In this document: one piece after another, positions 2,753 to 58,773 of the stretch
Numbering within the stretch: position 1 is the stretch's first letter
Layout of the letters: each line of letters begins with the position of its first letter
Origin: Pontederia crassipes
Taxonomy: Eukaryota > Streptophyta > Magnoliopsida > Commelinales > Pontederiaceae
Assembly: GCA_030549335.1 (NCBI GenBank)
Contig: CM060193.1
Coordinates: 58,929,146-58,993,145 of the forward strand
Reading direction: 5' to 3'
Length of the DNA stretch: 64,000 bases
Position numbers and translations under genes: made by a program
Notes under the pieces: model-generated
Told to the model about the DNA's origin: nothing
What the model saw: only the letters and a program-made list of their open reading frames with translations
Databases searched by the model: none

Positions 2753-3011
2753 ATAGGCCCTAGTTATCATTTCCCTATTTTCCACATTTATGAACTTGGA
2801 TGTAATTCAAATGTGATACCTATTATGAGAATTTTGTAGTACTTTGAGACTTCCGCTATTTTTAATATTCTATTTTTCCTTTTTATTTCTATTGCTGACA
2901 TGTCACTATTTTAATTGAGTTTTGGTCAATCTTTAGTCAAAGTTATAGTTTTTCGTAGCGCCTTCAGAGATATCCTCGCCACGTGGCGTTGGTCAATTTG
3001 GGGGCGTTACA
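2753..3011 (+). repeat. 5' LTR remnant of E1
   Basis: This stretch aligns closely with 9673-9932, the end of the 3' LTR, and finishes GGGGGCGTTACA before the PBS. The matching part to the left is missing because copia C1 lies there. The few substitutions between the two copies, including C-to-T changes, indicate an insertion that is not recent. Confidence 0.85.
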
Positions 3012-3015
3012 ATTA

Positions 3016-3027
3016 TGGTATCAGAGC
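3016..3027 (+). other. primer binding site of E1
   Basis: TGGTATCAGAGC, a perfect initiator-Met tRNA complement, four bases after the LTR terminal CA at 3011. Confidence 0.9.
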
Positions 3028-3201: not shown

Positions 3202-4436
3202 ATGTCGAGACGATCAGAGAGGATCCAAGAGCGGGAAGCCTGGTCGGCCCGTATTGCTCCTGAAGCGTCGGAGGGCCCAATCACTGAGTCACAGACCTTA
3301 GCCCACCGAGGTCGGTGATGAGGCCGTGGTCGAGGCCGTACCCCCAACCGCGGCCGAGGGCGAGGCCGCAGTGCGAAGGCGCAGACTCAGGATGAGTACA
3401 TTGATGAGACTGACCCATTGGAGGGCAGTCAAACTGGAGGCAGCTAGCCCTCGACCAAACGTCGCACGCAGGAACCTCGACAAGAGGTTTTTGAAGATAC
3501 TATTCAGGCATTTCTGAGGCTCATCCGTCACAGTTCGAGGGCAAGGCAGATTTCTTTAAGGCAGAGCAATGGATAGAGACCTTAGACCGCATATTTAAGT
3601 TGATGAGGTGTGCTGAAGAGCGAAAGGTGCTATATGCTATCCACATGATTACTGACACTGCCATGGGATGGTGGAAGACCACGAGAGCCACCAGATTTAG
3701 AGGGCCGGAGGAAGAGGAGATACCATGGACTGAGTTTAAGCAGGCGTTTGCTGACCGTTACACCCCTGAGCATGAACGAGTCAGTAAATACGAAGAATTT
3801 CTAGAGCTTATGCAAGGAACCATGACTGTGGTGGAATACCACACTCAATTTATCATGCTGGAACAGTACTGCCCGATGCCATTTGTGGGACGCATTAGGG
3901 CAAATAAGTTCATCAACGGACTGCAACAGAACTTGAAGACTGAAGTCCTACCTGGGGACTGTGACACTTTGAAAAAGGCAGTGAGACTGGCTACTCGCAT
4001 GAAGAAAGGCTAGGCCGAATGCAAAGCAAAAGCTCCAGCCAAGCATGCAGAGCAACAACGACCGTGGACTGAAGATCGCCAACCGTTCAGGAGGGACGAT
4101 CATCGCGATCGTGGCCATAGACCTTACTACCAGAGAGAGGCCCCTCGCTATGCTCAACCCCATCAGCGCCCAGCACTAGTACAACTTCAGGTATGAAGAT
4201 TTCAAAATGTTAATTAAGAATGTGTTAAAGTGTGACAATTAACTCACGTTCCGTGTAATAGCCTTTGAGACAGTTGCCACCTCCTCCTCGTCAGCCTCAG
4301 TCACAAGCACCAGTAGTTCAGCAGAAGTTTCTCTGCCCTCATTGCGGGCGTTATCATGACGGCGAATGCTGCAAGAGGAATGGTTCGTGCATCCAGTGCG
4401 GACAGTTCGGACATTTTGCCTGAAACTGCCCCTAGT
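3202..4436 (+). pseudogene. E1 gag: capsid and CCHC nucleocapsid, broken
   Basis: A likely start is the ATG at 3202 (MSRRSERIQEREAWSARI), but this frame stops after about 38 codons. The capsid domain (Retrotrans_gag) is readable from 3600 to 4013, with GWWKTTRATRF, WTEFKQAFADRY and LEQYCPMP as family landmarks. It ends at a TAG at 4011, where E2 encodes Gln. The frame continues as a basic linker to 4190, then 71 extra bases, then a Pro-rich stretch from 4262 and a zinc knuckle (CIQCGQFGHF-stop-NC) at about 4390-4431. The zinc knuckle is interrupted by TGA, as in E2. Gag would assemble the retrotransposon particle and bind its RNA. Confidence 0.85.
4191..4261 (+). other. intron-like 71-nt insertion in E1 gag
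   Basis: Bases 4191-4261 begin GTATGAAG and end GTGTAATAG. Codons before (CTT CAG, ending 4190) and after (CCT TTG AGA, from 4262) are phase 0 to each other, and joining them gives VQLQ-PLRQLPPPPRQP. E2 encodes LQAQ-PLRLLPPPPRQP with no insertion. The length is not a multiple of three, so the unspliced RNA is out of frame. GT and AG ends, AT-richness and exact absence from E2 fit a short spliceosomal-type intron. An ordinary small insertion is the alternative. Confidence 0.6.
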
Positions 4437-5077
4437 TCGCTAGGGGAGGCCGTGATAACCGGGACGTCAGAGGCGCAAACCCCGTGGTCCAGGGCAGGGT
4501 GCACAACATGGAGGTGAACACTGCCCAGAATGATAATGATGTTATCAGAGGTACCCTTCCTATTGCCGATATGTTTGCTATTGTCTTATTTGATTCAAGG
4601 GCCACACACTCATTTATTTTGAGGTCGTGCGCACAAGCTTTTGGCTTGTCTTTACAATAGATGCCTCAAACCATGAGGGTGAGCATCCCCATGGGAGATC
4701 TTCACACGGCTAGGTACATTCCGAATGTACCTATCATCGTGGAAAAGAAGAATTTCTCTACAGATCTTCTTGTCATCCCGATGATAGACTATGATGTCAT
4801 CCTAGGGATGGATTGGCTTTCTTATCATGATGCTGCTCTATACTGCAAGCAAAAGAAGATCATGATAGGTGCACAGGATAAACCGAAAGCGATTATCAGG
4901 GGTACTCCATCAGAAAGCAAGAAGGTGAGTGTCTCAGCTATGAAGGCTCAAAAGATGCTCCAGAAAGGATGTTGTGCATACTTGACAAGTGTGGTAAAGA
5001 CCGATGCACCGGCCACCACACTGCAACAGATAGATGTAGTGTTGAATTTCCAAATGTTTTTTCAGAAGATACTTTAG
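4437..5077 (+). pseudogene. E1 aspartic protease region, inactive
   Basis: The retropepsin region follows in the same frame as the zinc knuckle. The active-site segment reads LFDSRATHSFI. The family motif is D-S/T-G, and E2 has LFDSGATHSFI, so the glycine is replaced by arginine. A TAG at 4658 interrupts the domain. Downstream YDVILGMDWLSYH is the usual conserved flap and C-terminal block. The open frame 4661-5077 ends at another TAG. The domain would process Gag-Pol in the particle, but here it cannot. Confidence 0.85.
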
Positions 5078-5803
5078 GAGATATACAGATAGATGCACCG
5101 GCCACCACCACCGAGGCGTGAGATATACTTCAAGATCGAGCTTCTACCTGGAACCGCACATATCTTCAAGGCACCGTACCGCATGGCACCTGCCGAGATG
5201 CAAGAGTTAAAGAAGCAGATACAGGAATTGTTAGACAAAGGCTTCATTCGGCCGAGTGTTTCGCCGTAGGGAGCGTATGTATTGTTTGTTAAAAAGAAAG
5301 ATGGTTCAATGCGGCTTTGCATTGATTACAGGATGCTCAACAAGGTGACAGTGAAAGAAAAGTACCCTCTGCCCCGCATTGACGATCTTTTCGACCAGTT
5401 GTCCAAGGCATCCGTATTCTCCAAGATCCATTTGCGGAGTGCCTACCATCAGTCGAGAGTTGCTGAGGAAGACATACCGAAGACAATCTTCCGGTTTAGG
5501 TATGGTCATTATGAGTTTCTGGTAATGCCATTTGGGCTGACAAATGCTCCTGCAGCGTTTATGGATATGATGAACAGGATCTTTCGCTCCCACCTGGATC
5601 AGTTCATCATAGTGTTCGTGGACGACATCATGATCTACTCATCCAACCCAGAGCAGCATCGAGAGCATCTCAGGATAGTGTTGACTCTACGCCAACACAA
5701 GCTTTACGGTAAACTATCGAAGTGCGAATTTTGGCTGAAGAAAATCATGTTTCTTAAACATATAGTATCCAAGAAGGGCATTTTAGTGACCCCGGAAAAG
5801 TAG
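5078..5803 (+). pseudogene. E1 reverse transcriptase, catalytic Asp lost
   Basis: The reading frame continues with [19 protein letters not shown], then [33 protein letters not shown] and the FVDD box in [12 protein letters not shown]. These are the standard Ty3/gypsy RT palm motifs in order. The block normally written FSKIDLRSGYHQ reads [12 protein letters not shown], so the first catalytic aspartate is His. E2 keeps the Asp. In-frame stops occur near 5090 and 5267, the latter where PWG is expected. At about 5800 one base is missing and the frame moves. It is a clear pseudogene. Confidence 0.9.
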
Positions 5804-6420
5804 AAGCAGTGACTAACTGGGCAAGGTCGAAGAATGCATCCGAGATTCGTAATTTTCTAGGATTAGCAGGTTATTACAGAAGGTTCAACAGGGACTTCTC
5901 TAAAATTGTAGCACCGCTCACGAACCTCACGAAGAAAGTTGAGAAGTTCATCTGGTCTGATAAGTGTGAGCAGAGCTTTTAGACATTAAAGGATCGTTTG
6001 ACATCAGCACTTGTCCTCACCATCCCGACGGGCAACGGAGGATATGTAGTCTACAGTGATGCATATGGGACAGGCTTAGGGTGTGTGCTAATGCAGCATG
6101 GTAAAGTAGTGGCCTATGTTTCGCGCCAATTGAAGAAGCACGAGGTTAACTACCCCACGCATGACCTGGAGCTAGCTGCAATAGTTTTTGCTTTAAAGAT
6201 CTAGAGACATTACCTGTATGGGGAGACTATTGAGACCTTCACAGATCATAAGAGTCTCAAATATATTTTTGATCAGAAGGACCTTAACATGAGGCAACGC
6301 CATTGGTTGGAACTCCTGAAGGATTATGAATTTGCTATTAATTACCACCCTGGTAAAGCAAATTCAGTGGCAGATGCACTGAGTAGGAAATGGGAGGGTT
6401 CACTAGCATACATAAGAGTA
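5800..6420 (+). pseudogene. E1 RT connection and RNase H
   Basis: After the frameshift the thumb/connection continues with VEAVTNW and FLGLAGYYRRF. RNase H follows with [39 protein letters not shown], and the ending [18 protein letters not shown]. The first RNase H catalytic Asp lies in the YSDA block and is kept, as is Glu in HDLELAA. Stops at about 5982 (where Gln is expected) and 6202 (where E2 has Trp of KIWRHYLYG) break the frame. The role would be removal of the RNA strand during reverse transcription. Confidence 0.9.
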
Positions 6421-7936
6421 CGGGAGTACGAGATGTTACAAGAGATAGATCAGTGGTGTCCCAGACTTGGCAGTAATGGAGCGATGTGGATGATGCATCA
6501 AATGAAGCCCAGTATGATTGACAGAATCATAGCCGCTCAGAGGGAGGATCTAGAGTACCAGAAAGTGTTGATGAGATGTCAGAATGAGCCGAAAGACTTC
6601 CGGGTATCAACAGATGGAGGAATTCGGTATAGGGACAGATTATGGGTTCCCACATATGCAACTATCAGACGGGAAGTAATGGATGAGTGTCATAAGTCTG
6701 AGTTTGCCATCCATCCTAGGAGCAATAAGATGTACAAAGACGTACAACGCAGCTATTGGTGGTCTGACATGAAGAGCGAGATAGCTGAGTATGTGTCTAG
6801 ATGTCTGGTATGTCAGCAGGTGAAAATTGAGCACCAGAGGCCATATGGAAAATTAAAGCATCTAGATATCCCACAATGGAAGTGGGATAATATCACTATG
6901 AATTTTGTATCCAACTTGCCCAAGCCCAAGAAGGGTCATAATGCTATATGGGCGGTGGTTGATAGATTTACGAAGGCGGCACACTTCATCCCTATCCGGT
7001 GGAAGCAATCGGTAGAGAATTTATTAGACTTGTATGTTAGAGAGGTGGTTAGACTACATGGCATTTCAGCATCGATTGTTTCTAACCGAGACCTCAGATT
7101 CACCGCTAGATTCTGAAAGAGCATGGAGCAAGCATTTAGCACAAGGCTGAATTACAGCACTATTTTTCACCCTCAGACTGATGGACAGTATGAGAGGACT
7201 ATTCAGACATTAGAGGACATACTGCGAGCATGTGCAATAGATTGGCAAGGCAACTGGGATGAGCACATTCATCTAATCGAATTTGCTTATAATAACAGCT
7301 ACCATTCCAGTATCGGCATGGCGCCCTTTGAAGCTTTATATGGAAGACCTTGTCGTTCACCCGCTCACTAGGGTGAAGTAGGTGAAGAGAAAATCATGAG
7401 CAAAGAAGAAGTGAAGGAGACAGTAGAATATGTCGAGAAAGTAGAGCTGATCAAGCAGAGAATGAAGACAGCTCATGACAGACAAAAGAGTTATGTTGAT
7501 AAGAGCAGATATGAGCAGATTTTTCAAACTGGTGATCAGGTTCTGCTGAAGGTATCTCTCATGAAGAAAGTTATGAGGTTCGGTAAACGAGGGAAGATCA
7601 GCCATCGATACGTGAGACCCTTCGAAGTACTGGAGTTAGTAGGTGAAGCGGCATACAGATTAGCCTTGCCACCTTCATATGGGCGAGTGCATAATGTATT
7701 CCACGTATGATGCTGCCAATGTTTTACAGATCGAAGAGCCAAATCTATCTGCTGATTTGACCTTCGTAGAGTACCCGACACATATTGTGAAACGCAAAGT
7801 ACAATGCCAAAAGAATAAAGATATACCTATGGTCAGAGTAGCATGGCGTTTTCATCACGACGATGAAGCCACATGGGAACTCGAATCAGAGATGCGCCAG
7901 GAGTTCCCGCACTTATTCGGTAAGACCTCCACTTAG
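6421..7936 (+). pseudogene. E1 integrase with C-terminal chromodomain
   Basis: The zinc-binding HHCC region includes HPRSNKMYKD and CLVCQQVK. The core reads WKWDNITMNFV, VVDRFTKAAHF, SIVSNRDLRFTARF and YERTIQTLEDIL. The usual MDFV and SDRD aspartates are both Asn here, so two of the three catalytic acidic residues are gone, while the Glu of ERTIQ remains. TGA at 7114 and TAG at 7368 replace expected Trp codons. Near 7709 about 20 bases are missing relative to E2, which has SMLKKYKHN there. The chromodomain-like tail follows in another frame (PTHIVKRKVQCQ, WELESEMRQEFPHLF) and ends at 7936. Such tails direct integration to heterochromatin in chromoviruses. Confidence 0.9.
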
Positions 7937-7971: not shown

Positions 7972-8086
7972 TAATGATGTAATACTCGAAAATATATATA
8001 TATATATATATATATAATCCAATTTTAAAACCAACAACAATTGCCCATAATGAAGCCCATTAACATAATAGGCCCTAAATCTAAGC

Positions 8087-8094
8087 TATAAAAG
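8087..8094 (+). promoter_or_regulatory. TATA box of the E1 LTR promoter
   Basis: TATAAAAG at 110 bp into the LTR is followed about 30 bp later by a CT-rich stretch (CCTCTCATTTTCTCTCCC), the usual arrangement at plant LTR transcription starts. Confidence 0.6.
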
Positions 8095-8654
8095 CTTTAG
8101 TGCCCTAAGCTCACCTAATCCTCTCATTTTCTCTCCCTCACTTCTCTCTCCTTTCCCAAAAAACACTCCAGCCAGCAAGAGCAAAGGAGCTCCAGCAGCC
8201 TCCTTATCTTCAAGGATCATAGTAATAAAGGTCTTCTCATTTCTGCACTCATTTGATTTCCAACGTCATTTCCTTACATTCTTCTCCAACCGGATTGCGT
8301 CATAGGTGGGGAATGACAAGGGGAGAATGACCGCCGGTGACCGGAAGGATTTCATGCAAGGATTGACCAAGGAAAGAGGTGGGTGAATATGAAATTCCAT
8401 TGCATAACCTAAATAGAAATAGGCCAGAATGATTTATGTTCTAAAACCCTATGAGTTGTTCATGATTTAATGGAAAAAGTGAAGAAAATGAATGGATTGA
8501 TTGTATTCTTGTTGTTTGATCCCTGATTTGTGACTCTCTACGACTAAGGATGTGTTTGTATTATTACTCCATGTTTAGATGATTGTTTGTAAGCTGTGAT
8601 TGCATTTAGGATTGAAAATCCCTGAATTTTCGACTTCTGCTCGGTTTCTATTTT

Positions 8655-8963
8655 TCGCCGACCGGTCGACCGATCCAGAGATATCGGTCGACCGATTATG
8701 TGGGAATCGATCGACCGATCGATATAGAACGGTCGACCAATCATCCCTTTAGGGCTGCATAATTCGGCCGACCGGTCGGCCGAGACTATTGTACGAACCC
8801 AGACCCATCGGTCGGTCGATCCAGAAAAATCGGTAATGCCAAGAAGTCGGCCGACTGAGGCCCATTGTACAGACCTAGCACCATCGGTCGACAAATCCAG
8901 AGATATCGATCGACGGGTGTCTAGAAGTCAGTTTCGACCGATCAGTGAGAACCGGTCGACCAA
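8655..8963. repeat. GGTCGACC palindrome array in E1 LTR
   Basis: About a dozen variants of the self-complementary word CGGTCGACCG (also CGGCCGACCG, ATCGATCGACCGAT) lie within 309 bp, spaced roughly 20-35 bp and separated by short unique text. Similar arrays are in the E2 LTR and in the LTR at 31627-32979. Each word can pair with every other, so a transcript would be highly structured. Confidence 0.85.
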
Positions 8964-9932
8964 ACCCTAAGCAAATTTCATTTCGTTTGATGATTGATCT
9001 AGATTCTTTCCATGATTATGATATGTTATTCCCTACTGATTAAATTATTGTATGACTGGATCATTTGTCTTGTTATTGATCTGTCAAGTGATCTCATCCT
9101 CTTATAGAATGAAAGAACGATGAATGGATAAAGTGATTAATTAAGAAAGATGAAAAGATAAAAAGAGGATGGCCAGTCCATGCTAAGTGCTTATAGTGAA
9201 GGGTTGCTCCCTTAGCCATGGCTTGATCATCCATAGGCTGCACAAGATTATATTATTTTACTCGACATAAAACTCCAAAAGTTAAAGGCACCTAAAGTCA
9301 TTTAGGCTAAGAAAAAGTGCAAGGATAAAGAGTATGTATAAATGATATGAGTATGATGATGATAAGTGAAGTATGATTATTAATCCAGCATGATTATTGA
9401 AACCTTTCATAAGTAGATGATCTCTGAGCTCTCTTATCAATTGATATCTTAAAATTGAATGACTTTATGCTCTCTACTTGATCTTAATATAAGTGATTAC
9501 TGATTCTAACTAATTCTGTTTATTGTTATGCATTATATTGATTCTCCACTAGGTTGTATAGCTTACGGAAGGACCTCCTCCCCTGTGTTGATTTTCACAG
9601 GGGCATGTATGTGATGGTGTCGAGATCGTGTGTCGCGACCAGCTCGAACGATAATAAAGCACATGAACTAACAAATGGCCTAGTTATTATTTTTTCTATT
9701 TTTCGCATTTATGAACTTGAATGTAATTCAGATGTGATTCCTATTATGAGGATTTTGTAGTACTTTAAGACTTTCGCTATTTTTAATATTTAATTTTTCC
9801 TCTTTATTTCTATTGCTGACATGTCACTGTTTTAATTGAGTTTTGGTCAATCTTTAGTCAAAGTTATAGTTTTTCGTACCGCATTCAAAGAAATTCTCGT
9901 AACGTGACGTTGGTCGATTTGGGGACGTTATA

Positions 9933-11869
9933 TCACCTTATATGATGTATGATGTAACATTCCACTCCACGGCTATATATGATAATAATTGATGCCATAT
10001 CTTGAATTCAAGACTATGAAAGATGAAAAATAAATACTTTCGAATATTGACAATTAGAACACGAGAGTTAATGATAGACAAGGAAACATAGTAGCTGTAA
10101 ATCATAGTTGGCATATTTAAAAAAAGTACTAATAATATACTCCACTCATTTGGAAGGGTATTATTATCCATGAGATAAGAATAACTATTCAGCTGATTTT
10201 ATTATTAAAAAAATTAGAAAATGTTGATGTAAGAAGAATAGTTGAACTTTGCTTTTTAATATTTCAACGTGTAATAATTGCTTTGGATGAATAACTAATC
10301 TCAGTTAAAATTTTCATCTGTTTGGAGAATAAAATATTTTGTTCTCATGCTATCCACCTTCTAAGCATGGACTTTTAATTCTATTTTATTTTATAATTTT
10401 TATATAACAGAGAGCATAATTTAATCACCGCATTAATTAATATTTCCAAGACGGTTGAAATAATAGTTTTCTTTTCAAAAGTAAGAGGCATGTGATCGGA
10501 AAAAGTAAAAAAAAAACATAAATATGAAGTAAAAATAATATAATAACAATCTTGAAATGTGAAAGTTGACACGCTCTTGTTCCTTGGATTCCTTTGTGAC
10601 GGTGATATATTAAAATTAAAAATAATATAATAACAATCTTGAAATAAAAATTAAAATTAAAAGATCTACTTTCGACTGCAAAGAACCGATTTTTTTTCCC
10701 GAGCTCCGACTTGAACATTACCGCGAAACGGAGGAGGCACGACTTTCACTATTCGTTGCTCATTTTTAATAAAAGCTTAACTGAATTCGAACTCTTGACT
10801 TCTGACTCTGATATTATATTAAATTTGATGTGCTCATCAATTTTTTTAAAAAGCTTAAGTCGTTAAGAAGAATAATATCTATAATTTTATATTCTTAACA
10901 AAATGACGAAGCCAAAAAAGGAGGTGCTTTTCCAAATGGTATGATGTGCTTAGGGCGTTTTTTGTGTCAAAGGCACCCGAGGATGCTTCAAAAGGAACAA
11001 ATAAAAAAACAAAAGTTACGATAAAGTTGTGTTTAAAATGTCTTAAATGTATTTAAATTTTAGACAATATTTATATAAGTTTAGAATTTGTTGAATAATT
11101 ATTGTTAGACAAAATGTTCTGCATCATGTCGAAATAATTGTATTGTTTAGATATGATAATGTACATTATTAAAATAAATATTAAAAATATTTAAATTTGA
11201 TTAGAAATTTAAAACTATTATTTGAAGTTTGCAAAATAAAAAAGAAGAGTGGCACTTTAAAATATGAAGAATCTATAGTCTTGGTAATTGCCTTCAAATT
11301 TTTTTTTCTCAATACGGCTGAAAACTCTGATAAAAAATTTGTGATTGATATTAAAATAAAAATATATATTTAAATAAGTTTTAATACTTATTTGCATAAA
11401 GAGACACATATTAGTGTGCGATAACAAACTAATCAAAATATTGCTAATACAAAAGTTTAAAGTCTGTGATTTAATGGTGCGATAACAAATTATGATAGCA
11501 CACTAATTTAACTAATTTTGTTATATTAAAAAATTATATTATATATAACGAGAGGTAAAATGTTTGAGGTGGCACTTTCAAAATAATTAACTTAAAAAAT
11601 AATGTATATATGATAAATACTTTATTATGTATATTATTAAAATTAACAATGAAAAAGCAACTTGGTTATAAAGTAATTTCAAAATTTAAGATCATTTGCA
11701 TCCATTTTCATAACTTTTATCACAATTCCAAATTCTTTCACTTTTAAGGTTAATTCAGTCATTTCACTCTTTCATTTAAGAATATTACACTGCAGCCGCC
11801 ATGGTTGAGCACGCTCCACATCAGGCTGGCATGGCCCAGGCCGAACACGAGGAAGTTGTATAGGGACCT
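9933..11869. other. AT-rich spacer, no gene recognised
   Basis: No coding sequence or RNA gene is supported. A 27-bp direct repeat (AATAATATAATAACAATC core) occurs at about 10537 and 10618 around a short unique piece. Near 10776 AATTCGAACTCTTGACTTC resembles a tRNA B-box on the reverse strand, but no second promoter box is evident. A moderately GC-rich piece at 11790-11865 directly before the LINE tail may be older host sequence. Confidence 0.6.
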
Positions 11870-11999
11870 TTTTTTAAAAAAAAAGAGGAAGATTATATTA
11901 AAGCAAAAGATGACTCAGAGTCAGTATAAAAATTGATGGAGGCCAGGAGGAGGACTGTCTACCCAAAATTATTTGCCATTTTGATGACCAAAATTAGCT

Positions 12000-14389
12000 A
12001 AGTGGTCCGCGGCAGAGTTGTACACCCTGGGCCGGCCGGCCGAATTGAGGGAGACCCAATTCGGGGAGGGGAGCTCCCAATGGATCCGCGAAGGGTCCTG
12101 GGGTAAGTTGCTTTAGGGGCGTGGGTTTTGCTAGAAGAGAATTCATGGAAACCAGCCAGCGCCTTCTCCCAGATCACAGCGGCGGTTGCAAATTTGGACC
12201 GAAAATGAATATCATTCCTGATATTCCAAATAGAACAGAGGCAGAATGAAAATATGGATAGAAGATATTTCCTAGACTGAAGGCCCAGATAAGCACCCTC
12301 GATCCAAGAGCCGGAATCCCATGAGGGAAAAAAGAAAAAGGAGAATTGGAGTTTGGCTTGAAAAAGTTTCCATAATTGAAGGGCAAGTGGGCAAGAGAAG
12401 AAGAGATGGGAAGTGGTTTCGGGTGCAAGGCCACAAACAGGACAAGAAGGGTTAATATTGGGATTGAAAGTAAGAATGTAGTCCATGGTGGACAGTCTCT
12501 TATGAAAAAGTTTCCAAAGGAAGATGTGAATTTTGGGGAGGGACAGAGATATTCCAAATCACAATCCAAGATTGTCGTCTAGCCACAAGTGTCGGCAAAG
12601 CCTGCTAGTACATGAACTTATAAACAAAGCTAGCATTAGGGAGCCCATGCTCATCGGTCGCCCAAACCCACGCATCATCACAGGCAGAGCGAGGGATGTA
12701 ACAAATCGAATCACAAAAAAATCTAGGACAAAAGGGGGCAGGAGAAATCAATAATAAGGTCCGAGCAGGGTATGTCAACTTCCATATTAAGATAGGTGGG
12801 TAAACGATTGAGAGGGATAGGAGATATCCAAGGATCGAAAAGAATAGAAGTGTTATGACTTGACCCTATGGACTTGATGAATTCAAGACGAAGCTGTGGG
12901 AGGGAATCAATAATAAGGTGCCAAGACCAAGCAGTGCCCCTGGGAAGTGGGGGATTCCAAAGAGATATGGATCCATACTTAGTCAAGACGAGGCACACCT
13001 AGAGGGATTGGGAGTTTGACAGGAGGCTAAGGACACAATGGGCCAACAGGGACGCACAAATAAGATGGAAGTTACGAATACCTAAGCCACCTTCCATGCA
13101 GGGAAGCTGCACGGTAGACTAACGAATTAAGTGGAGCCCCTTATGATCATTACCAGAGTCCCATAGGAAAGATCGGGTAAGGCGCTCAAGGGAGCGAAGA
13201 GTACCTACGGAAAGGTAGGTAGTCCCAAGAAAGTAAGTAGGAAGAGAGGAGAGATATGAGTTGATAAGAGTGGAACGGCCAGCCTGACTAAGTAGCTTAC
13301 GCTGCCAGCCGGAGAGCCTGGAGGAGAAACGCTTAATAAGAAAACCTTGATCGTGCATTGGAATATAGTTGGCAAAGATAGGAACCCCTAAGTAGATGAA
13401 TGGGAAGTGACCTTGGGAAATACCAAGAGCCTGCTTCCTACGGGAGTTAAGACGACAGGGACAATACACAACAGATTTAGGAGAATTGATGTGCTACTTG
13501 TGAGGGATTCATAAATGGAGAGGATAGATCTAATATGTCTCCTGTTGGATTGGGTGGCCCGAATGCAAACAAGCGTGACTAAGGGAGAAGGAGTTGAATT
13601 TGAAGGAGATGATGCGGCCGAGGTCGATATGGCACTGGAGTAATGATGTGAATATTTGAGATACAATGATGAAGAGATATGGAGAGAGCAGATCTCCAAG
13701 GTGCGACAGGAAATAAGGAGAAGGTTTTTTGTTGATGATACATGAGAAAATAGGGGACATGATACAAAGATTAATCCAATTGATAAACATAAGGGGAAAG
13801 TTCATTAGAGGTAGGATATGGATAACCGCGTCCATGAGACCTGGTCGAAAGACTTCTCCATATCGATTTTTACCAATATATGCTTTATATGGCCAATGGA
13901 GAGGGAGTGGGAAAGCTCTTGTGCCAGTAAAATGTTGTCTTGAATATTGCGGTCAGGGATGAATGGCGATTGAGAGGAACTAATGAGACTAACAAGGGTG
14001 GGTTTGAGGCAATTGGTGAGGATCTTAGCGAAAACCAGATATAAAGTATGACAGAGGGATATGGGACAATAGTCTTTAATGGTTAAAGGCGACTCTTTCT
14101 TCGGGATAAAAATGAGGAAAGTCTTACACCACTCATTAGGAAGATGAAGGTTAACGAACGCCTCCTAGATGGCAAGGGTTGTACGACACCCCACAATATC
14201 CCAATAGTTATGGTAAAAGTCGAGCGTGAAACCGTCAGGACCCGGGGTCTGAATGACAGATGACCTCATCCTCAGTAATGGGGCCGATAAGGGACGGAAG
14301 GAGGGGTCATAAGTGGGAACCTCAGGCCAAAGGTTAGGAGGGATGGTTACGTCAGGCAGAGGACCCCAAAGATTAATGTAATGATCCAC
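12000..14389 (-). pseudogene. LINE ORF2: RT and zf-RVT region
   Basis: RT begins with QTPGPDGFTLDFYHNYWDIV (14255 downward), then KTFLIFIPKKESP and IKDYCPISLCHT, SPFIPDRNIQDNILLAQE, NFPLMFINWINLCI and GDLLSPYLF. These are the L1 RT palm blocks in order. After SFSLSHAC the FADD catalytic box should follow, but the text runs straight to HSGHPIQ, so it is deleted. Later come PFIYLGVPIF, LSGWQRKLLSQAGRSTLI, typical of the L1 thumb, and a zinc-binding domain (CPVCGLAPETTSHLFFSCPLA) near 12430. Several frames are used, showing multiple frameshifts. Confidence 0.88.
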
Positions 14390-14879
14390 AAAATGCTTTT
14401 CGATCAGATGAGGGAGGGTGATGACCCCGCCAGAGTTCAGATGGACGTGATGAAAGAGATTCCGCTTGTGCCGGATAATGATTTGGAGGTGGAAGAACTT
14501 AATGTTTCGATTCCCATGTTGAAGCCATGCAGTGCGGGACTTACTCCATCACTTGATATTAATCTAGTGTAGAAGAGCAACATAGATGTGATAAATGGCC
14601 CTAAGGGAAGCTAAATCAGACTCCGATAGACCTCGAGAGATGTCGAGGCCCTCAAGCAACGAAATACGGACAAGAGCTTCTTGAGCACGCAGCTCAAGCC
14701 GCCCGAGAACTACAGCGAATGGTATCCTTGTGGATATGCTTCAAAGATTTGTGGATGGAGTGGGAACACGAAGGAGATGACCAGTGCCATCTGACAATAT
14801 CCTTAGCCTCCGGATGGAGGAACCAAAAGTGCTCATACTTGAACAAATGACAACGTGGTAGCCGGAGATCAAACTGGAA

Positions 14880-17285: not shown

Positions 17286-19231
17286 TGTAACGTCCCCAAA
17301 TTGACCCCCGTCACGTGGCAAAGACCAACCTGGAGACGCTTCGGCATGCTATGACTTTGACCATAATATTGACCATATCTCAGTCAAGAATTGAGATACG
17401 ACAGCGGAAGGATAATAAAATAAAAGAAATAAGGAAAAGTATAACTTTAATCAGTGGAAGTCTAAAAAGTGGTTATATCATTTCTGAGAAATAAAATAAA
17501 GTTTTACATCATGAAACTATAATGCGGAAGGAAAAAGAAAAATCTCTATAAGAACTAATAATAAATCCTATGGTTCATGTGCTTTCTTTCCGCCAGAGCT
17601 TCGTCATCACACACCTACTCCACCTCGTCACTTACCTGGTCATGTGGAAATCAGACACAGGAGAGGAAGTCCTCCCGTAAGCTTTACAGCCTAGTGGGAA
17701 ACCTCATGATATACAATGCATGACATGAATATAAAAATCGGCAATATATAATCATGATTAACTTGAACGTGAAAGATAACATGCCAGTATCATGGATCAT
17801 AATATGGATAAGAGTAAGAATCAAAATATATCATGAATCATGAGAATCACATGATTCTTAATAAACTTGAAATCATAGCATACTTGACTTGACTTAAACA
17901 TTCTTCTTGATCTTGGATTATTATTAGAAATCATGGTGATTTTAAGTGCCTTTAGTTCTTGGGGTATGCCGAGCAAACGATATGGCCTTGTGCGGGTCAG
18001 TGGATGATCAAACCATGACCAAGGGAGCTACCCTTATGTTGCTGCACTTGGCTTGGACTGACAACTCATTGTTAATCTTTCATCTGAACATATTAATCAC
18101 TTTTAACAACTTGTGGCTCTTTGTTCTTGGTTCAATGGATTCGATAAGATCAATAAGAAATAAATCAATAAAAGAATAAATCTTGAGAATCTGTGAGGGG
18201 TCTTTGTGGGGTAAGAAAAATAGGATCAACTATATATAGGTAATATTGGGATAAAAAGGGAAATAATTAATAAAGCTAATAAAAGGTTTCTGGATATCGA
18301 TCGACCGGTAGTCTGCTGATCGGCCGACCGTGGCTGATTCGGGTTGATAAGGTCGGTCGATCCGTTCAGTTGAACGGTCGACCGGTGGGTAAGGATCGGT
18401 CGACCGGTGACAGGGATCGGTTGACCGGTCGACGTATACAGAAAATCGGCAACAGTCATGTTATCGATCGACCGGTTGCCGGCAATGCCTGCGGACCGGT
18501 CGACCGATCGACGTCCAGAAAGTTGCAAAACTTTCGGATTTCATCAATTCTTCGATGCAATCTCAACCTAACCTAGTTCCTATCTCCTAGCAAATCAATC
18601 ACACAACAATAGAACAACAGGAAAAGAATTATGCATGAAATTAATCAATCAATCAATGAATTCAAGAAAAGCAAACAAGGCAAACAAGAAACTTGAACCC
18701 TCTTTTCCTCTTCTTCTTTACATGTACGATTAGGGCATGATTCAACATTATTCAGGGGTCATGCAAGGTGATTTCGATTCACCCACCTGTTATCTCAATT
18801 AATCCCTCTTTTCATTTGTCGAAAATCGATTAAATAGCACCCCTATTGTCCTACGTTTTCTGCCCTGTCCTTCTTCTCTATCCTGCAATCCAACGAAGAT
18901 GGTTGTAGGACGGGCATGTCGATCAGGTGATTGCAGTAAGGGGAGGGAAGAAGAGATCGACTTCCGGCGGCTTGCTCTCTGGACGACAGTAGCGTGGCCG
19001 CAGGGATCAAACATGGGAGGATTTTCTTTTCGTGTGTTCAGCCGGCCCTGACTTCATGAAGGGTTTTAACTAATCCTCTTCTTCTAATTCAATTCTAATA
19101 TGATTAAGGAGATAAAAGTTTATCCCTCTAATCCAACTCTAATTGGGAGTTGGGTTTATTTCCTTCGTGACCTGCTTGGCCACCCATCACGTTATATCTT
19201 TCTTTTTTTTTAATTTGTGTCGGTTATTACA
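17286..19231 (-). repeat. 3' LTR of E2
   Basis: On the minus strand it starts TGTAATAACCG (19231) and ends GGGGACGTTACA (17286), 1,946 bp. The polypurine tract lies just outside at 19235-19252. The five bases outside the left end are GAGGA, the probable target copy within the LINE, but the other end is lost so a duplication cannot be shown. Confidence 0.85.
18295..18515. repeat. GGTCGACC palindrome array in E2 LTR
   Basis: Eight to ten copies of CGGTCGACCG-type words (for example GATCGACCGGTAG, ACGGTCGACCGG, GACCGGTCGACCGATCGACG) are packed in 220 bp at the place in the LTR corresponding to the array of E1. Intervening text is not conserved between the two LTRs. Confidence 0.85.
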
Positions 19232-19362
19232 TTCTTACACCCTTAAAAGAAAAATTTTTCTCGAATTTTGCACTAGGTAGAGGGCTTACCGAAAAGTTGA
19301 GAAAATTCTTAGCGCATTTTCGACTTGTGTTCCCATGTTGCATCGTCTCCATTATGGTAACG

Positions 19363-20660
19363 CTAAGCTACTCTGACCATGGGGACATCTTTGTTCTTCT
19401 GACATTGCACTTTACGCTCCACTATATGTGTTGGATACTCAGCGAAGGTCAAGTCTGCAGCTAGATATGGCTCCTCTATCCTTAGAATATTTGCAGCATT
19501 GTGCTTGTACTTCTTGAGCATGGATACATGAAACACGTTATGCACTCTCTCATAAGATGAGGGTAGAGCCGGTCTGCATGCCGCCTCGCCTACTAGCTCA
19601 AGTATATCGAAGGGGCCTACATAGCGAGGACTGAGCTTTTCTCGCTTGCTGAATCTCATGACCCCTTTCAAAGGGGATACCTTCAAAAGAACTTGGTCAC
19701 CAGGTTGGAAGATCTGTTCTCGTTTGCCTTTATCAGCATAACTTTTTTATCTTCCTTGAGCAGTCTTCATTCTCTGCTTGATCAGTCCGATTTTCTCAGC
19801 ATACTCTACTGCTTCCTTAACTTCTTCCTTAATCATAATCTTCTCCTCGCCTACCTCACCCCAATGGGCAGGTGAACGGCAAGGTCGTCCATACAAGGCT
19901 TCAAAAGGTGTCATACCAATACTAGAATGGTAGCTGTTGTTATAAGCAAATTCAATCAAATGGATATGCCCATCCCAGCTACCCTGCCAATCTAGTGCAC
20001 ATGCTCGCAACATGTTCTCCAGTGTCTGAATTGTCCTCTCAGACTACTCATCTATCTGAGGATGGAAAGCTGTGCTGAAGTTGAGCCTCGTGCCAAAGGC
20101 CTCCTGCATTCTCCTCTAGTATCTGGCAGTGAATCTGGGTCTCGGTCAGACACTATAGATGCTGGAATACCGTGAAGTCTGACCACTTCTCTCACATACA
20201 GGTCCAGCAAGCTCTCCACTGATTGTTTCTATCTGATGGGGATAACATGTGCTGCCTTAGTAAATCTGTCCATGACTACCCATATGGCATCATGACCCTT
20301 CTTAATCCTAGGCAAGTTGGACATAAAGTCCATATTGATCTTATCTCACTTCCATTATGGGATTTCCAGAGGCTTCAACTTGCCATATGGTCGTTGATGC
20401 TCGATCTTAACTTGTTGGCACACTAGACATCAGAAAGCATATTCCGCTATTTCCCTCTTCATATCCGGCCACCAGTAGCTGCGCTGCACATATTTATACA
20501 TCTTGGTGCTACTAGGGTGGATAGCGAACTCCGACTTGTGGCACTCATCCAGTACCTCTCATCGGACAGTAACATCGGTGGGAACTCATAACCTGTCCCG
20601 ATATCTGATTCCTCCATCTCTAGATATAAAAAAGTCCGCAAGCTCATTTTGATATCTTTT
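19363..20660 (-). pseudogene. E2 integrase and chromodomain
   Basis: Reading leftward: zinc-binding region near 20640, core with INMDFMSNLP, SIVSDRDP, SERTIQTLENML and WDGHIHLIEFAYNNSYHSS, then a C-terminal domain (GDQVLLK, LSPRYVGPFDILELVGEAA) and RVHNVFHVSMLKKYKHNAAN. The chromodomain tail AEYPTHIVERKVQCQKNKDV runs to 19363 but is broken before the EATWE block. Stops occur where Trp and Gln are expected (WK-stop-DKI; DE-stop-SERT). The catalytic Asp residues are preserved, unlike E1. Confidence 0.88.
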
Positions 20661-20675
20661 TAGGACCTTCTGATA

Positions 20676-22030
20676 TTATGGATCTTCCTTCTGAACTGTT
20701 ATGATCCTGTCAATTAAGTTGGGCTTTATCTGATGCATCATACATAAAGCTCCATTTGTGCCCAGCTTGGGACACCATTGCTCAATTTCTTCTGACATCT
20801 CGTACTCGCGTAGTCTCATATAAGCTAGCGAGCCTTCCAACTTCCTGCTTAATGCATCGGCGACTGAATTTGCTTTACCTAGATGGTAATTGATAGCAAA
20901 TTCATAATCCTTGAGGAACTCAGGCCATCTTCGTTGCATCATGTTAAGATCCCTCTGATCGAAGATGTACTTGAGACTCTTGTGGTTAGTGAAGATCTCG
21001 AACGTCTCGCCATACAAGTAATGCCTCCAGATCTTCAAGGCAAAGACCATTGCCATCAATTCTAAGTCATGTGTGGGGTAATTGACCTCATCCTTCTTCA
21101 GTTGCCGTGAAGCATAGGCCACTACTTTGCCGTGTTGCATCAGGACACAACCCAATCCTGTCCTACATGCATCACTGTAGACCATGTAACCTCCACTGCC
21201 TGTTGGTATGATGAGAATTAATGCTGAAGTCAGTCGGTCCTTCAGAGTATGAAAGCTTTGCTCACACTTATCTGTCCAGATTCATGAGAGGTGTAGTAAT
21301 TTTAGAAAAGTCTCGGATAAATCTCCTATAATAGCCTGCCAAACCAAGAAAGCTGCGAATCTCAAAGGCATTCTTCGGTCTTACCCAATTCGTTACCGCT
21401 TCCAATTTTGCGGGGTCTACTGTAATGCCCATCTTGGAGATTATGTGTCCTAGAAACATTATCTCCTTTAGCCAGAACTCACACTTTGAGAACTTGTCAT
21501 ATAGCTTGTGTTGCCTCATGGTCTCCAGCACTATCCTGAGATGCTCTCTGTGTTGTTCTAGACTAGAAGAATAGTCAAGATGTCATCTACAAACACAATG
21601 ACAAACTGATCTAGATATGGTCGGAAGACCCTATTCATTAAATCCATGAACGCTGCAGGAGCGTTCGTCAGTCCAAATGGCATGACCAAAAATTCATAGT
21701 AGCCATATCTTGACCGAAGAGCAATTTTCTGTATATCCTCTGCCACTCTCAGCTGGTGGTAGCCACTACATAGGTCGATCTTGGAGAACATTGATGCCTT
21801 GAACAACTGATCGAAAAGGTCATATATACACGGAAGGAGTATTTATTCTCCACTGTTACTTTATTTAGCATCCTATAGTCAATGCAGGGCTGCATGGAGC
21901 TGTCCTTCTTCTTAACAAACAAGACCAGTGCGCCCCAGGGTGAGACGCTCAGTCTGATAAATCCTTTATCCAGAAGCTCTTGTATCTGCTTCTTGAGTCC
22001 TTGCATTTCGACAGGTGCCATGCGGTAGGG
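20676..22030 (-). pseudogene. E2 reverse transcriptase and RNase H
   Basis: From high to low coordinates: [76 protein letters not shown], then FLGLAGYYRRFIRDFSK, and RNase H with [29 protein letters not shown] and [18 protein letters not shown]. Frames change at about 21810, 21550 and 21270, each a small indel. The catalytic FVDD and the first Asp are intact. Confidence 0.9.
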
Positions 22031-22084
22031 TGCCTTAGAGATGGGTGTTGTTCATAATAGGAGCTCTATCTTAAAATCGATTTA

Positions 22085-22692
22085 TCATTTCGGTGGTAGT
22101 CCATATGTGTCATCAGGAAACACATCTGGAAATTTTCGCACCACATCTACTTGTTGGAGCTCAGTGATAGATGCATCTGTCTTGACTACACTAGCTAAAT
22201 ACCCACTGCATCCCTTCTGAAATAACTTCTGTGCCTTAATGGCTAAGACGATGACCTTATTATTCGTTGAAGGAGTGCCCCTAATCACCATCTTGGATTT
22301 TTCTTGTGTTCCTATAATGATCTTCTTCTGCTTATAGTGTAAGGCTGCGTTGTGGTATGAAAGTCAATCCATCCCCAAAATAGCGTCGTAATCCACCATG
22401 GGGATGACTATGAGGTATGCAGAAAATTTTTCTTTTTCTACATTGACAGGTACATTCGGGATGTACCTTACAGCATGGAGAGTCCCCATAGGCGTACTCA
22501 CACGCATGGCATGGGCATCTGCTTTAAAGGCAAACTAATAGTTTGGGCACACGACTCCAAAATAAACGAGTGTGTAGCCCCAGAATCAAATAAAATAGTA
22601 GCAGACAAATTGGCGATCGGGAGAGTACCTCTAATGACATCATTGTCATTTTGGGCTGCATCAGCTTCCAAGTTGTGCACACGACCTTGCAC
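22085..22692 (-). pseudogene. E2 aspartic protease region
   Basis: The active site LFDSGATHSFI is intact near 22580, preceded by NDNDVIRGTLPIANLSA as in E1. The later block GMD-stop-LSYHNAALHY carries a TGA where Trp is expected. The segment to 22085 (VIRGTPSTNNK, PDVFPDDTYGLPP) leads into RT. Frame changes occur between 22498 and 22300. Confidence 0.85.
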
Positions 22693-23367
22693 AACGGGAT
22701 TTGCGCCTCCTGTTGCCCGGTTGTCTCGGCCTCCTCTGGCAGCCTGTGGGCAATTTCAGATGAAATGTCCGAACTGTCCACACTGAATGCATGCGCCGCT
22801 CAGTCTGCGGCACTCTCTATCATGATGACGACCACAGTGAGGGCATAAGGACTTCTGGCTGGCGCGGTGGTGGTGGCAGCAGCCTCAGAGGTTGTGCTTG
22901 CAGTGGCGCAGGATGTGGCTGAGCTGGAGCTTGTCGTGGGGTTTCTCTCTGCTGGTAAGGCCTGAAGCAGCGATCACGACGATTGTCCCTCCTAAATGGT
23001 CGGCGATCATCGGTTCTAGGCCTGGGCTGCTCTATTATTTTGGCTGGAGCTTTGACCTTACGCTCAGCTTGATTCTTCTCCATACGTTTGGCCAACCTCA
23101 CAGCCTTTTCCAGATCTTCACAGTCTTAAGATTGGACCTCAGACTTCAGAGCTTGTTGCAACCCATTGATAAATTTATTAGTTATAATACGCCCTTCAAA
23201 TGGCATCGGATAGTACTGCTCCAGTTGAATGAACTAGGTGTGATAATCCGCCACAGACATAGTTCCCTGCTGTAGTTATAGGAACTCCTCTTGTTTGTTG
23301 ATACGGTCATGTTCAAGAGTGTAGCGGGCCATGAAGGCCTTCTTAAACTCATCACATGCTATATCCT
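22693..23367 (-). pseudogene. E2 gag C-terminal part and zinc knuckle
   Basis: Starts within the capsid (DEFKKAFMARYTLEHDR) at about 23360 and runs through LEQYYPMPFEGR, NKFINGLQQ, KAVRLAKRMEKNQAERK, a basic Pro/Gln-rich linker, and HCGRHHDREC. The knuckle reads CIQCGQFGHFI-stop-NC. No counterpart of the 71-nt insertion of E1 is present between QAQ and PLRLLPPPPRQP (22885-22895). The TGA in the knuckle is at the same codon as in E1. Confidence 0.88.
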
Positions 23368-23371
23368 CATA

Positions 23372-24066
23372 ATTCAATCATCTACATCGTCATCTTTGTT
23401 GAACACATTTTCCACCACAACATAATTTTCAAATTCTACCTTAACATAAAGTTTAAATTACAACACCAAATATTTTAACATAAAGTTTCCACCATAAGTT
23501 TCTTAACATAAAGTTTAAATTACAACACCAAATATTTTAACAACATTTGTAAAATATCAATAAGAGGACATTCATCATTTCTCTTCATTTCATCCTTCAC
23601 CCATTTGCAAAGTTTCCTACAAGTTAATAAAAAAATGATTAGTAGAATAAATCTAAATTGAATAAAATTAAAAAATGATAAAAAAGTTATCACAAGTCCA
23701 CAACTTCATCATTCAATCATCTACATCTTCATCTTTTTTGAACACACTTTCCACCACAACATAATTTTCAAATTCTACCTTAACATAAAGTTTAAATTAC
23801 AACACCAAATATTTTAACATAAAGTTTCCACCATAAGTTTCTTAACATAAAGTTTAAATTACAACACCAAATATTTTAATAACATTTATAAAAGTTCAAT
23901 AAGAGGACATTCATCATTTCTCTTCATTTCATCCTTCACCCATTTGCAAAGTTTTCTACAAGTTAATAAAAAATGATTAGTACAATAAAACTAAATTGAA
24001 TAAAATTAAAAAATGATAAAAAGTTACCACAATTTCATCATTCAATCATCTATATCTTCATCTTCG
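23372..24066. repeat. tandem repeat, about 335-bp unit, 2.1 copies
   Basis: Copies start with ATTCAATCATCTACATC at 23372, 23711 and 24040 (periods 339 and 329). The third copy diverges after about 25 bp. Inside each unit there is a smaller duplication of TTAACATAAAGTTTAAATTA. The unit has no coding potential. It lies between the broken end of E2 and the 3' end of the hAT gene, so it probably belongs to the hAT element's 3' subterminal part. Confidence 0.85.
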
Positions 24067-24149
24067 TTGATTGTGTAAAAAACACACTTTCCATTAGAAG
24101 GATCTAACAAAAAAATATTGTTAGTTTAAAAAAAATGACACATCATAAT

Positions 24150-40148: not shown

Positions 40149-41299
40149 TTAGCTTAAAGTTTGAACAACAAAAGAAATGTTTGGTTGAGTCATTGTTAGA
40201 TATAATAATCTTCCAATAAGCCTTTGATAAATTGAAGGATCTTTGAGAAGTTCATCATCCTGATTGATATTGAATTCATCATCATAAGCTTTTGTTGTAA
40301 ACTTGACATTTACTTCAAGTGTAGTAACTACAGGCTTTGCTGAGGAGAATCCCAAATTTGAAATTAATTCAAGAGCAAACTTCCTTGGACTCAATACAAT
40401 ACCATGTTTGTTTCTTGCCACTTCAATGCCAAAAAAATATTTCATTTCACCAAGATCCTTGATTTTAAAATTTTCATGCAATACTGCCTTCAATTCTGCA
40501 ATTAAAGCCTTATCATTACCGGTAATAAGGATGTCATCTACATAAACTAACATTATTACCATTCTGGAACCAATTCTCTTTGTGAACATAGAATAATCTG
40601 ATTTGCTTTGAAGATATCCATTGTCAATTAAGGTAGAGGTCAATTTATGATTCCATTGTCTGCTGGCATGTTTTAACCCATATAAGGACTTTACTAGTCG
40701 ACAAACCATCCTTTTATGGGTGGAACCTTTAAAACCCTATGGTATCTCCATATAAACTTTCTCATTTAAATCTCTCTACAAAAAGGCATTACTAACATCC
40801 ATTTGATACAAAGGCCATGCATGAATAGCCGCTAATGTCAAAACAATTCTAACTGTGGTCATTTTAACTACTGGAACTCTGTATAGTCAATTCCTTCATC
40901 TTGACTATATCCTTTAGCTATTAATCTTGCCTTGAATTTATCAATTGACCCATCTACCATATGCTTAACTTTATATACCCACCTACAACCAATGGCTTTC
41001 TTCCCTGGTGGTAATTCAACCAAATTCCAAGTATGATTCTCCTCCAATGCCTGAATTTCATTTTGCATGGCAGCTATCCAGTTAGGATTTAACTTGGCCT
41101 CTTCATAAGACATAGGTTCTTTGATATCAGAAATGGATGCCAGAAAACATTGACAATTAGGTGATAAATGTCCATAAGCTACATAATTCAAAATAGAAAA
41201 CTTATAATTCTTGTTTACCTGATCTCCTTTGTGGGAAGAGGATGACATAGTAGATAAAGCATAATCTTTGTGCCATATAGGAGGTCCAGTTTGCCTCAT
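40149..41299 (-). pseudogene. C2 copia reverse transcriptase (RVT_2)
   Basis: The N-terminal half has WIAAMQNEIQALEENHTW, CRWVYKVKHMVDGSIDKFK and ARLIAKGYSQ EGIDYTE. The second half has VCRLVKSLYGLKHASRQW, MLVYVDDILITGND and FKIKDLGEMKYFFGIEVAR. The YVDD catalytic box is intact. Between 40709 and 40868 frames are broken by stops. The element therefore kept most of its RT sequence, though not as one frame. Confidence 0.92.
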
Positions 41300-41919
41300 T
41301 GATTTTCTAGTCTAAACAATAACAGGTGAAACAACGCTAGGATTAAGAGCTGAGGAAGAAGAAGGAATATCTAATGTGGATGAAAGACAAATAGGCATAG
41401 TGGAATCAGGACCAATAGGCACAGGTGAAGGAATAAGAGTTTTTAGAAGATGGAGAAGCAGAAGTAGATCTGTCATTGTTAAGAGAGATTTCTGAAATGG
41501 CTCTATTAACAGGACCATCATTAGAATTAACAATCATAGGAAGCAAAGAAACATCTGAAGTATGTGCATGACTTGGAGGAATAAAGAAAGGGTCATGATC
41601 ACGAAAAAAAATGAGAAGTATGCTGATCAGATGTAGAAGATGCAAAAGGAAAAACATATTCATTGAATCTAACATCTCTGTTGATGAATAACTTTTGAGT
41701 TACTAAACTCAAAAGTTTATAACCCTTTTGAGTGGAAGAATAGCCAAGAAAAATGGAAGGAATAGCTTGTGCTGCAAGTTTATCCTTGTTATCATTGGTA
41801 TTTGTGGCAAAACACTAACAACCAAATACTTTAATATGGCTATAATTTGGAATCTTATTGAAGAGTAGTTGATAAGGAGAAATGTCTTTCAAATATGGAT
41901 ATGGAATTCTGCTGATAAG
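41300..41919 (-). pseudogene. C2 integrase C-terminal and linker region
   Basis: Between integrase core and RT the frames are short and shifted. The piece near 41660-41820 corresponds to the copia integrase tail (C-FATNTNDNKDKLA, SSTQKGYKLLS, INRDVRFNEYVFPF), interrupted by frame changes. A Ser/Pro-rich linker follows. No intact domain is present. Confidence 0.65.
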
Positions 41920-42990
41920 TTATACTGCCATTTGAAAACACTCTCCCCAAAACTTCATTGGAATGTTGGATTGAAATTTCAAGGCCCTAGCAACATCAAG
42001 TAAGTGTCGATGTTTCCTTTCAGCAACTTTTTGTTGAGGGATATTAACGCAAGAGCTCTCATGTACAATCCCCATTGAGGCAAGAAAGGAATTGCACTGA
42101 TGGTTAAAAAATTTAGAGCCATTGTCTGAACGAATTGTTCTAACAACTGCTGAAAATTGATTCTTAACATATGCTAGAAATTGTTGAAGGCATAAAAAAG
42201 TCTCACTCTTGAATTTCAATAAGAAATTCATGCGTATCTGGTATAATAATCCACAATAGTCAAAAAAATATTTTGTTGTCATGTGTTGAAAATTTATAAG
42301 GCCCCCACAAATCCATATGCAATAATAAAAAAGGATATGCAGAGTATGTGGAAATGGCAATCTGGTTTGATTGGCAAGAGGACAAATTGAACAATCTGAA
42401 AATGAAATATCATTGTCAAAGGTACAGTTTAGCAAAGAAGATAAACGTTGGAGTTTAGAAATAGGTATATGGCCAAGTCTTTGATGCCATATATTACAAG
42501 AATCATGAACTGACGAGGAAACAAAGCAATGAGCTGGATTAAAAGAAGAACTATTTCCAACTGCTATCATTAGATGTGAAGAATCAATTGTTGCAACACC
42601 ATCATTCACTCCTGTTGTAGCCAAATATTGAAGGTAATATAATCCTTCTCTTCCTCTACCAATCTCCATCACCTTTCCACTGGAGGTCTCTCGTAAAACA
42701 CAAGAATTAGGCAAAAAATTGACTGAGCATTTCAATTCACTGCAAAGCTTGAAGATAGATAATAAATTGACTTTGAATTTTGGCACATATAAGATATCAT
42801 TCAGTCTTTTATGGGGAGCAATGAAACAACTCCCAGAATGAGTAACCTCAGATGAAGTGCCATCTGGTAACTTCACATATTGTCTAGAGGAAGACTCAAG
42901 GAAATTGATATTATGAAGTAAGTCAAGAGATGAACACATGTGACTGGTAGCACCAGTGTCCAATATCTAACTTTTATCATCTTGATCAGA
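41920..42990 (-). pseudogene. C2 protease, GAG-pre-integrase and integrase core
   Basis: Protease: LDTGATSHMCSSLDLL, with the catalytic DTGA intact, then FKVNLLSIFKLC. Pre-integrase zinc region: WHQRLGHIPISKLQRL and CSICPLANQTRLPF. Integrase core: the first Asp block (DLWGPYKFST) is reached through a frameshift near 42300, then IRSDNGSKF and QQKVAERKHRHLLDVARAL give the second Asp and the Glu. The long open frame of 347 residues is the best preserved part of C2. Confidence 0.92.
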
Positions 42991-57830: not shown

Positions 57831-58249
57831 CTTTTCCCTTTTCCGGCTTTCTTTCCATTTTTTTCTTTATATATATTCCTCCTCCCTCTTCTCTTTCTCC
57901 CTCCTCCCTCCACTCCTCTCTCTCTCTCCCTCCTCTCCTCTCTCTCTCTCCCGGCCGCGAGCACCCCGCGCGTCGGACGCCGACGACCCTCCCACGCCGG
58001 ACGCCGACGACTCTCTCCCGCACCGGCGACCCTCTCCCGCGCCGGCGTATCTCTCTCTCCCGCTCCACGCCGGCGTCTCTCTCTGCCGTCGGCCGGCCGG
58101 AGGCGGAATCCGGCCGTGGCCGTTCGGATCCGGCCTCCAGGCAGCCGGATCGGCCGCCAGGCGGTCGGTTCCGGCCTCCAGCGGCCGGATCCGACCGCCT
58201 GGCTGCGGCAGCGGCCGGATCCGAACGCTAATTTTTTTATATTTAAAAA
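57831..58249. other. CT-rich and GC-rich interior of the CACTA element
   Basis: A pyrimidine run of (CTCTC)n at 57880-57955 is followed by CpG-rich GCCGGACGCCGACGA and GGCCGGATCCG words. An open frame of 153 residues spans this part, but it is low complexity and has no recognised domain. It could be a promoter/5' region captured from a gene. Similar interior text, inverted, is in the second CACTA sequence (61040-61450). Confidence 0.5.
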
Positions 58250-58760: not shown

Positions 58761-58773
58761 TCTTGTAGTGCAC

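Follow-up and report, generated by a model that had tools for sequence, protein, structure and literature searches.

How does an element that multiplies through RNA come to hold an intron, and to keep it? The question is raised by a 64,000-nucleotide (nt) stretch of Pontederia crassipes DNA (contig CM060193.1 of assembly GCA_030549335.1, positions 58,929,146 to 58,993,145; hereafter the window), in which E1, a retrotransposon of the Ty3/gypsy type, carries an intron-like block of 71 nt inside gag. An RNA-replicating element is expected to lose introns fast, whereas here the intron appears to have spread with the family. From sequence comparison, we consider it very probable that the block is a spliceosomal intron, which was gained by the Ty3/gypsy family of E1 and was lost repeatedly through the reverse transcription of spliced RNA. 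Because this intron would have been gained within one lineage, its birth and losses, together with its intronless relatives, could be traced through the individual copies of a single genome, and the family would provide natural evidence on how retroelements part genome RNA from messenger RNA.

Anatomy of the block and of E1

The block and its surroundings are laid out as follows (the slash marks the border between exon and block).

3495..4190, plus strand: exon 1, the capsid part of gag (Pfam Retrotrans_gag, 3.3e-15; reading frames)
4188..4196, plus strand: donor CAG/GTATGA with the in-frame stop TGA at 4194-4196 (sequence, copy alignment, chance simulation)
4191..4261, plus strand: intron-like block, 71 nt, phase 0, dividing the capsid part of gag from the zinc-knuckle part (sequence, family copies, precise absence)
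4239..4243, plus strand: branch-point-like motif TTAAC, its A lying 20 nt before the 3' end (copy alignment)
4256..4261, plus strand: acceptor TAATAG, its AG kept in 49 of 50 aligned copies
4262..4420, plus strand: start of exon 2, the zinc-knuckle part of gag (open until TGA at 4421-4423; cysteine pattern recognized by eye)

The block lies at exactly 4191-4261, starts with GTATG, ends with TAATAG and has a length that is not divisible by three. The exon-1 frame, which is open over 4014-4193, ends with VQLQ-V and then meets the TGA, and the downstream zinc-knuckle frame of E1 starts at 4262. The first-pass annotation had read the block as intron-like, in phase 0 and with a continuous frame in its absence, and this description holds for the coordinates, for the frames and for the open junctions of the intronless copies described below. 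The sequence has the marks of a U2-type intron, namely GT..AG ends, a branch-point motif, U-richness and a length within the plant norm, and there are natural copies that lack exactly the block and are of independent origin. In E1, T makes up 34% of the block versus 19% of the 52-nt flanks, and GC 30% versus 59%. The AT content of 70% is not diagnostic, because 38% of simulated host segments are equally AT-rich, and it was discarded as evidence for an intron. We found no direct repeats of at least 8 nt around the block, no unusual fold for it, no Rfam match at gathering thresholds and no longer match to it elsewhere within the window.

The remainder of E1 is organized as follows.

2759..3011, plus strand: 5' long terminal repeat (LTR) remnant, truncated at its 5' end (comparison with family copies)
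3016..3027, plus strand: primer binding site (PBS) TGGTATCAGAGC, which we take to be a tRNA-iMet match (sequence)
4661..7933, plus strand: protease, reverse transcriptase (RT), RNase H, integrase zinc domain and a weak chromodomain match, interrupted by stops (domain search, frames)
7979..9933, plus strand: probable 3' LTR, its start placed by eye after AAGGGGG (sequence comparison)

The LTRs, the PBS and the order gag-protease-RT-RNase H-integrase place E1 in Ty3/gypsy. Its chromodomain match (PF00385, E 3.3e-4, 20.9 bits) is weak versus the cutoff of 25.1 bits, which is exceeded by a relative, L002 (27.4 bits); the Tekay label of the first-pass annotation is one that we also assume for the family. 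E1 is a dead copy, with one stop in exon 1 (TAG at 4011-4013) and a difference of 10.3% over 253 sites between its LTRs. At the 5' LTR, the other family copies extend further upstream.

Could the block be a random filler, private to E1, that resembles an intron by chance? The host DNA is AT-rich, and a further insertion, of 25 nt, sets E1 apart from most copies: 47 of 52 aligned copies share a 25-nt gap at window positions 5079-5103 (the other five align differently there), which is best read as E1's own insertion. However, when randomly drawn host segments (40,000, each 60-90 nt long) were inserted in silico at the block site, only 1.9% gave GT..AG ends at a best gap placement, 0.06% a donor as good as that of E1 and 0.02% such a donor plus the branch motif, as scored with the donor and branch-point consensus that we assume. 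The 0.06% figure is valid for E1 only, since its donor, with a G at +5, occurs in E1 alone. Furthermore, the block is common to the family, which refutes a private event, and we give this explanation virtually no credence. The 25-nt insertion (window 5079-5103) has an apparent source, noticed by eye, at about 5000-5030.

Carriers and intronless copies in the host genome

We searched the host genome (1.13 Gb) with three queries. The first one, which contains the block and is thus biased toward carriers, yielded 333 candidates, and the block is present in all of the best 40 places scored (E1, and 39 others at 88-93%); it is therefore not private to E1. The second query, blind to the block, consisted of 199 nt of the downstream exon. 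Among the best 40 of its 557 candidates, all read at the junction, 36 have the block (E1 included) and four (L073, L074, L076 and L082) lack exactly the block; its imprecise removal as a whole was never seen. The 36 carriers include L084 and L090, which are damaged on the donor side and were excluded from the alignment of 50 block-bearing copies, and the near-duplicates L086 and L087. The third query was the block itself. The first-pass annotation had named as a refuting outcome a repeat inserted elsewhere with the same ends; 31 of the best 40 of 206 matches are copies read inside gag, which answers this in part, and the other nine were not read in context. In the 50-copy alignment, GT and AG are both kept in 44 copies and TTAAC in 45, contrary to the third refuting outcome named by the first-pass annotation (no copy with conserved splice sites and branch point), and the donors include CAG/GTATAA (25 copies), CAA/GTATAA (11 copies) and GTATGA (E1 alone). 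In 48 of the 50 copies, the frame that continues from exon 1 into the block meets a stop at codon 2.

Copies without the block were also sought by their junction. The exon-exon pattern was found at 5 places (control, 0) and a degenerate 26-base pattern at 16 places (control, 3), 10 of which have at most two mismatches. Eleven of the 16 are family copies as judged by their flanks, including L101 with three mismatches, and the context of the remaining five, which have three mismatches each, was left unread. The six copies L073-L077 and L082 are all open across the junction; four of them have a stop elsewhere within 60 codons, and L075 has none. Since LTR homology is kept in all five of L073-L077 and an exact PBS in four, these copies went through the usual LTR route. 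Copies apparently derived from spliced RNA, as anticipated from the single locus, thus exist, the likely ones being L073, L074, L076 and L082. Upstream of the junction, L097 and L100, two members of an intronless subfamily, look like chimeras with a different family.

The window holds a second relevant element.

17286..23368, minus strand: E2, of a related family without the block (sequence comparison)

The first-pass annotation had regarded E2 as a sister element from which the block is exactly absent, possibly as a copy reverse-transcribed from spliced RNA. The net extra length of E1 is indeed 71 nt. However, E2 represents a related family and not a sister copy, because its identity to E1 is only 73.5% in pol (70% in gag), and the alignment with E2 alone leaves the block ends tied: six gap placements, one of which has GT..AG, share the score of 138 of 203 matches, and under different gap costs the gap is divided or becomes longer. 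E2 also lacks 26 nt just downstream of the block. The block is absent from all 40 E2-family places, 30 of which were measured (largest extra length, 11 nt) and 10 judged by match length (rows L045 and L047 are without an anchor). Relatives were sought further afield: viral contigs, plasmids, phages and a first scan of genome contigs yielded none, and a further contig scan yielded two bacterial records with plant-type elements, of which L002, in a Mycobacterium record, reaches gag and is continuous across the block site. Because both the E2 family and this outside relative lack the block, its absence there looks ancestral; the derivation of E2 from spliced RNA was rejected on the grounds of the family-wide absence of the block and the low pol identity, and a gain in the family of E1 is the simplest reading. 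The plant-type chromovirus DNA in L001 (an Acidobacteriota metagenome-assembled genome) and in the Mycobacterium assembly is presumably contamination. Two tandem stretches, 92% identical, adjoin the start of E2 (window 23345-24070).

Probable gain and losses of the block, and recombination

Trees were built on the exon-side sequences, with the block left out, using all columns, the 5' part and the 3' part separately. L011, L015 and L018 (odd or long) were left out after the first tree, and L081, L083-L087 and L089 (short or damaged) from the all-column tree onward; L097 and L100 (long or chimeric) were left out of the subfamily and pairwise tests, and L101 is in no tree. The bootstraps were unsettled in the early trees, the all-column tree and the 3'-part tree.

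The intronless copies are scattered, as judged from the following lines of evidence. First, the intron state changes six times on the all-column tree, four of these changes being forced by well-supported branches, and five to seven times on the single-side trees, with three to four forced (an earlier, shorter set gave two forced changes). Second, the grouping of all intron carriers in one clade was rejected (p 7.4e-6 for all columns, 2.6e-6 for the 5' part and 2.1e-5 for the 3' part). Third, L082 is nested among the intron-bearing L078, L080, L088 and L090 (support 99/98). Fourth, L073, L074, L076 and L082 were rejected as one clade (p 6.5e-67), and so was the pairing of L082 with any of the three others (p <=2.6e-5). 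The pairwise tests make two losses of the block firm, as far as sequence comparison can tell, and there would be three if the four forced changes are taken with one gain; the probable number is three or four.

The intronless copies might instead represent an older, insertion-free state, the block being an ordinary insertion that was amplified with the family while recombination of packaged RNAs spread the state without it. This explanation accounts for the E2-like families and for the one subfamily that lack the block, and it draws on the partial disagreement between the 5' and 3' trees, which makes recombination likely. However, the four single intronless copies and the intronless subfamily were rejected as one clade in all columns (p 1.5e-49), in the 5' part (p 9.6e-4) and in the 3' part (p 4.3e-9). 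In addition, the nearest rare variants shared with carriers lie 8-38 nt to the left and 13-42 nt to the right of the junction, so any exchanged tracts must be short, though some of these variants may reflect repeated decay and not descent. Finally, most of the family would have had to acquire an insertion that breaks the frame and stops it at codon 2. We therefore regard this explanation as improbable.

The proposal of an intron gained once and lost repeatedly has to be weighed against a number of observations that speak against it. The typical donor of the family fits the consensus less well than that of E1, whose G at +5 is unique. The block is barely more conserved (0.902) than its flanks (0.876 and 0.892), so that no selection on it is visible in these old copies, and the joint retention of GT and AG is unexceptional, being matched by 36% of the block pairs and by 15% of those taken from the exons. 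The pairing of L073 with L074 was rejected only at p 0.017, which is unsafe after six tests, and L076 could share its loss with L073 (p 0.115) or L074 (p 0.146). The intronless subfamily (L075, L077, L098 and L099) may be ancestral, its basal placement having p values of 0.366 for all columns, 0.159 for the 3' part and 0.027 for the 5' part, and its rejection as one clade in the 5' part (p 0.005) makes recombination likely. Lastly, AG stands at both ends of the block, so that a microhomology deletion would leave a product identical to that of splicing. Such a deletion of DNA between the two AG dinucleotides would readily explain single intronless copies, but the block is missing with identical ends from 8 of the 52 copies aligned to E1, whereas the 32 other deletions of at least 25 nt in these copies are every one private, and at none of the 40 block-blind places was the whole block seen to be removed imprecisely. 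The block ends are fixed by other copies from the family of E1, save for a 2-nt shift that results from the AG on both sides. We hold the deletion of DNA to be very unlikely, and retain the gain and repeated loss of a spliceosomal intron.

Elsewhere in the window, dense tandem and inverted repeats occupy 57000-58800, and broken LINE-like and copia-like frames were recognized by eye on the minus strand at 11998-14548 and 40149-43426.

Possible sorting of RNA and comparison with known systems

From these sequences we infer splicing, how often it would occur and what regulatory use it may have, and we propose the following pathway. The intron would have been gained in the chromovirus-like family once the E2-like families had branched off. 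On removal of the block by host splicing, the capsid portion of gag would be fused to the zinc knuckle and to pol, and the unspliced RNA, which stops at codon 2 of the intron, would encode only a capsid without the knuckle. Most new copies would arise from unspliced genomic RNA and retain the intron; spliced RNA would occasionally be packaged and reverse-transcribed by the normal LTR pathway, giving rise to precise intronless copies. As the intron persists in about nine of ten sampled copies, the copied RNA would be mostly unspliced. The first-pass annotation had suggested that splicing separates a gag-only RNA from a Gag-Pol RNA: given the stop at codon 2 in 48 of 50 copies, splicing would indeed separate a capsid-only frame from Gag-Pol, but the unspliced product would lack the zinc knuckle. 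It is conceivable, though less likely than not, that intron retention sorts the RNA, the unspliced form being the packaged genome, which encodes only the knuckle-less capsid, and the spliced form the Gag-Pol messenger; about one tenth of the sampled copies (4/40, 95% interval 3-24%) would then stem from the messenger pool or its descendants, the intron having been gained within one retroelement lineage. A benefit to the element, through the sorting of genome and messenger or through another effect, may be supposed.

Retroelement introns and splicing are already known (Ogre, BARE1, CRR); in the open-licence literature, as far as its accessible portions extend, we found neither this position, within gag and ahead of the knuckle, nor any account of a Tekay-type element whose gag holds an intron. 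The clade of CRR, the rice centromeric element, is chromoviral. According to the passages available, CRR is a Gypsy element with spliced transcripts, the splicing being said to remove rt and to yield two open reading frames, and it is remarked on alongside Bagy2 (PMC3735527); in the E1 family, by contrast, the putative intron is a small one in gag. In the accessible part of a CRM survey, a word search met neither 'intron' nor 'splic' (PMC3059260). Plant LTR elements are described as generally devoid of introns (PMC12786077), and isoforms are described for the sunflower elements Tyran and Varan (PMC7730604).

Similarly to the E1 family, Ogre (Tat lineage of Ty3/gypsy) is a plant element whose polyprotein is interrupted by an intron; this intron lies between GAG-PROT and RT, and splicing of a subset of the RNA allows the whole polyprotein to be made, as far as the cited text goes (PMC6317226). 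The block of E1 differs in that it measures 71 nt, lies inside gag ahead of the zinc knuckle and protease, and not between protease and RT, and belongs to a chromovirus-like element. BARE1 (Ty1/copia) resembles the E1 family in having a short intron (104 nt, at the end of gag), a CAG/GTAT donor and more U than in the flanks (37.5% versus 13.5%) (PMC3735527). However, the roles are reversed: in the account of BARE1 at hand, the spliced RNA encodes Gag only and the unspliced RNA the whole polyprotein (PMC3735527), and the unspliced capsid RNA of the E1 family would differ from BARE1's Gag-only RNA in having no zinc knuckle. Likewise, EVADE (Ty1/copia) is reported to produce, by alternative splicing, a short GAG RNA (shGAG) beside the GAG-POL RNA (PMC12786077). 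Splicing thus closes the frame after GAG in EVADE, whereas in the E1 family, where the intronless junctions are open and the block brings a stop at its second codon in 48 of 50 copies, it would open the frame.
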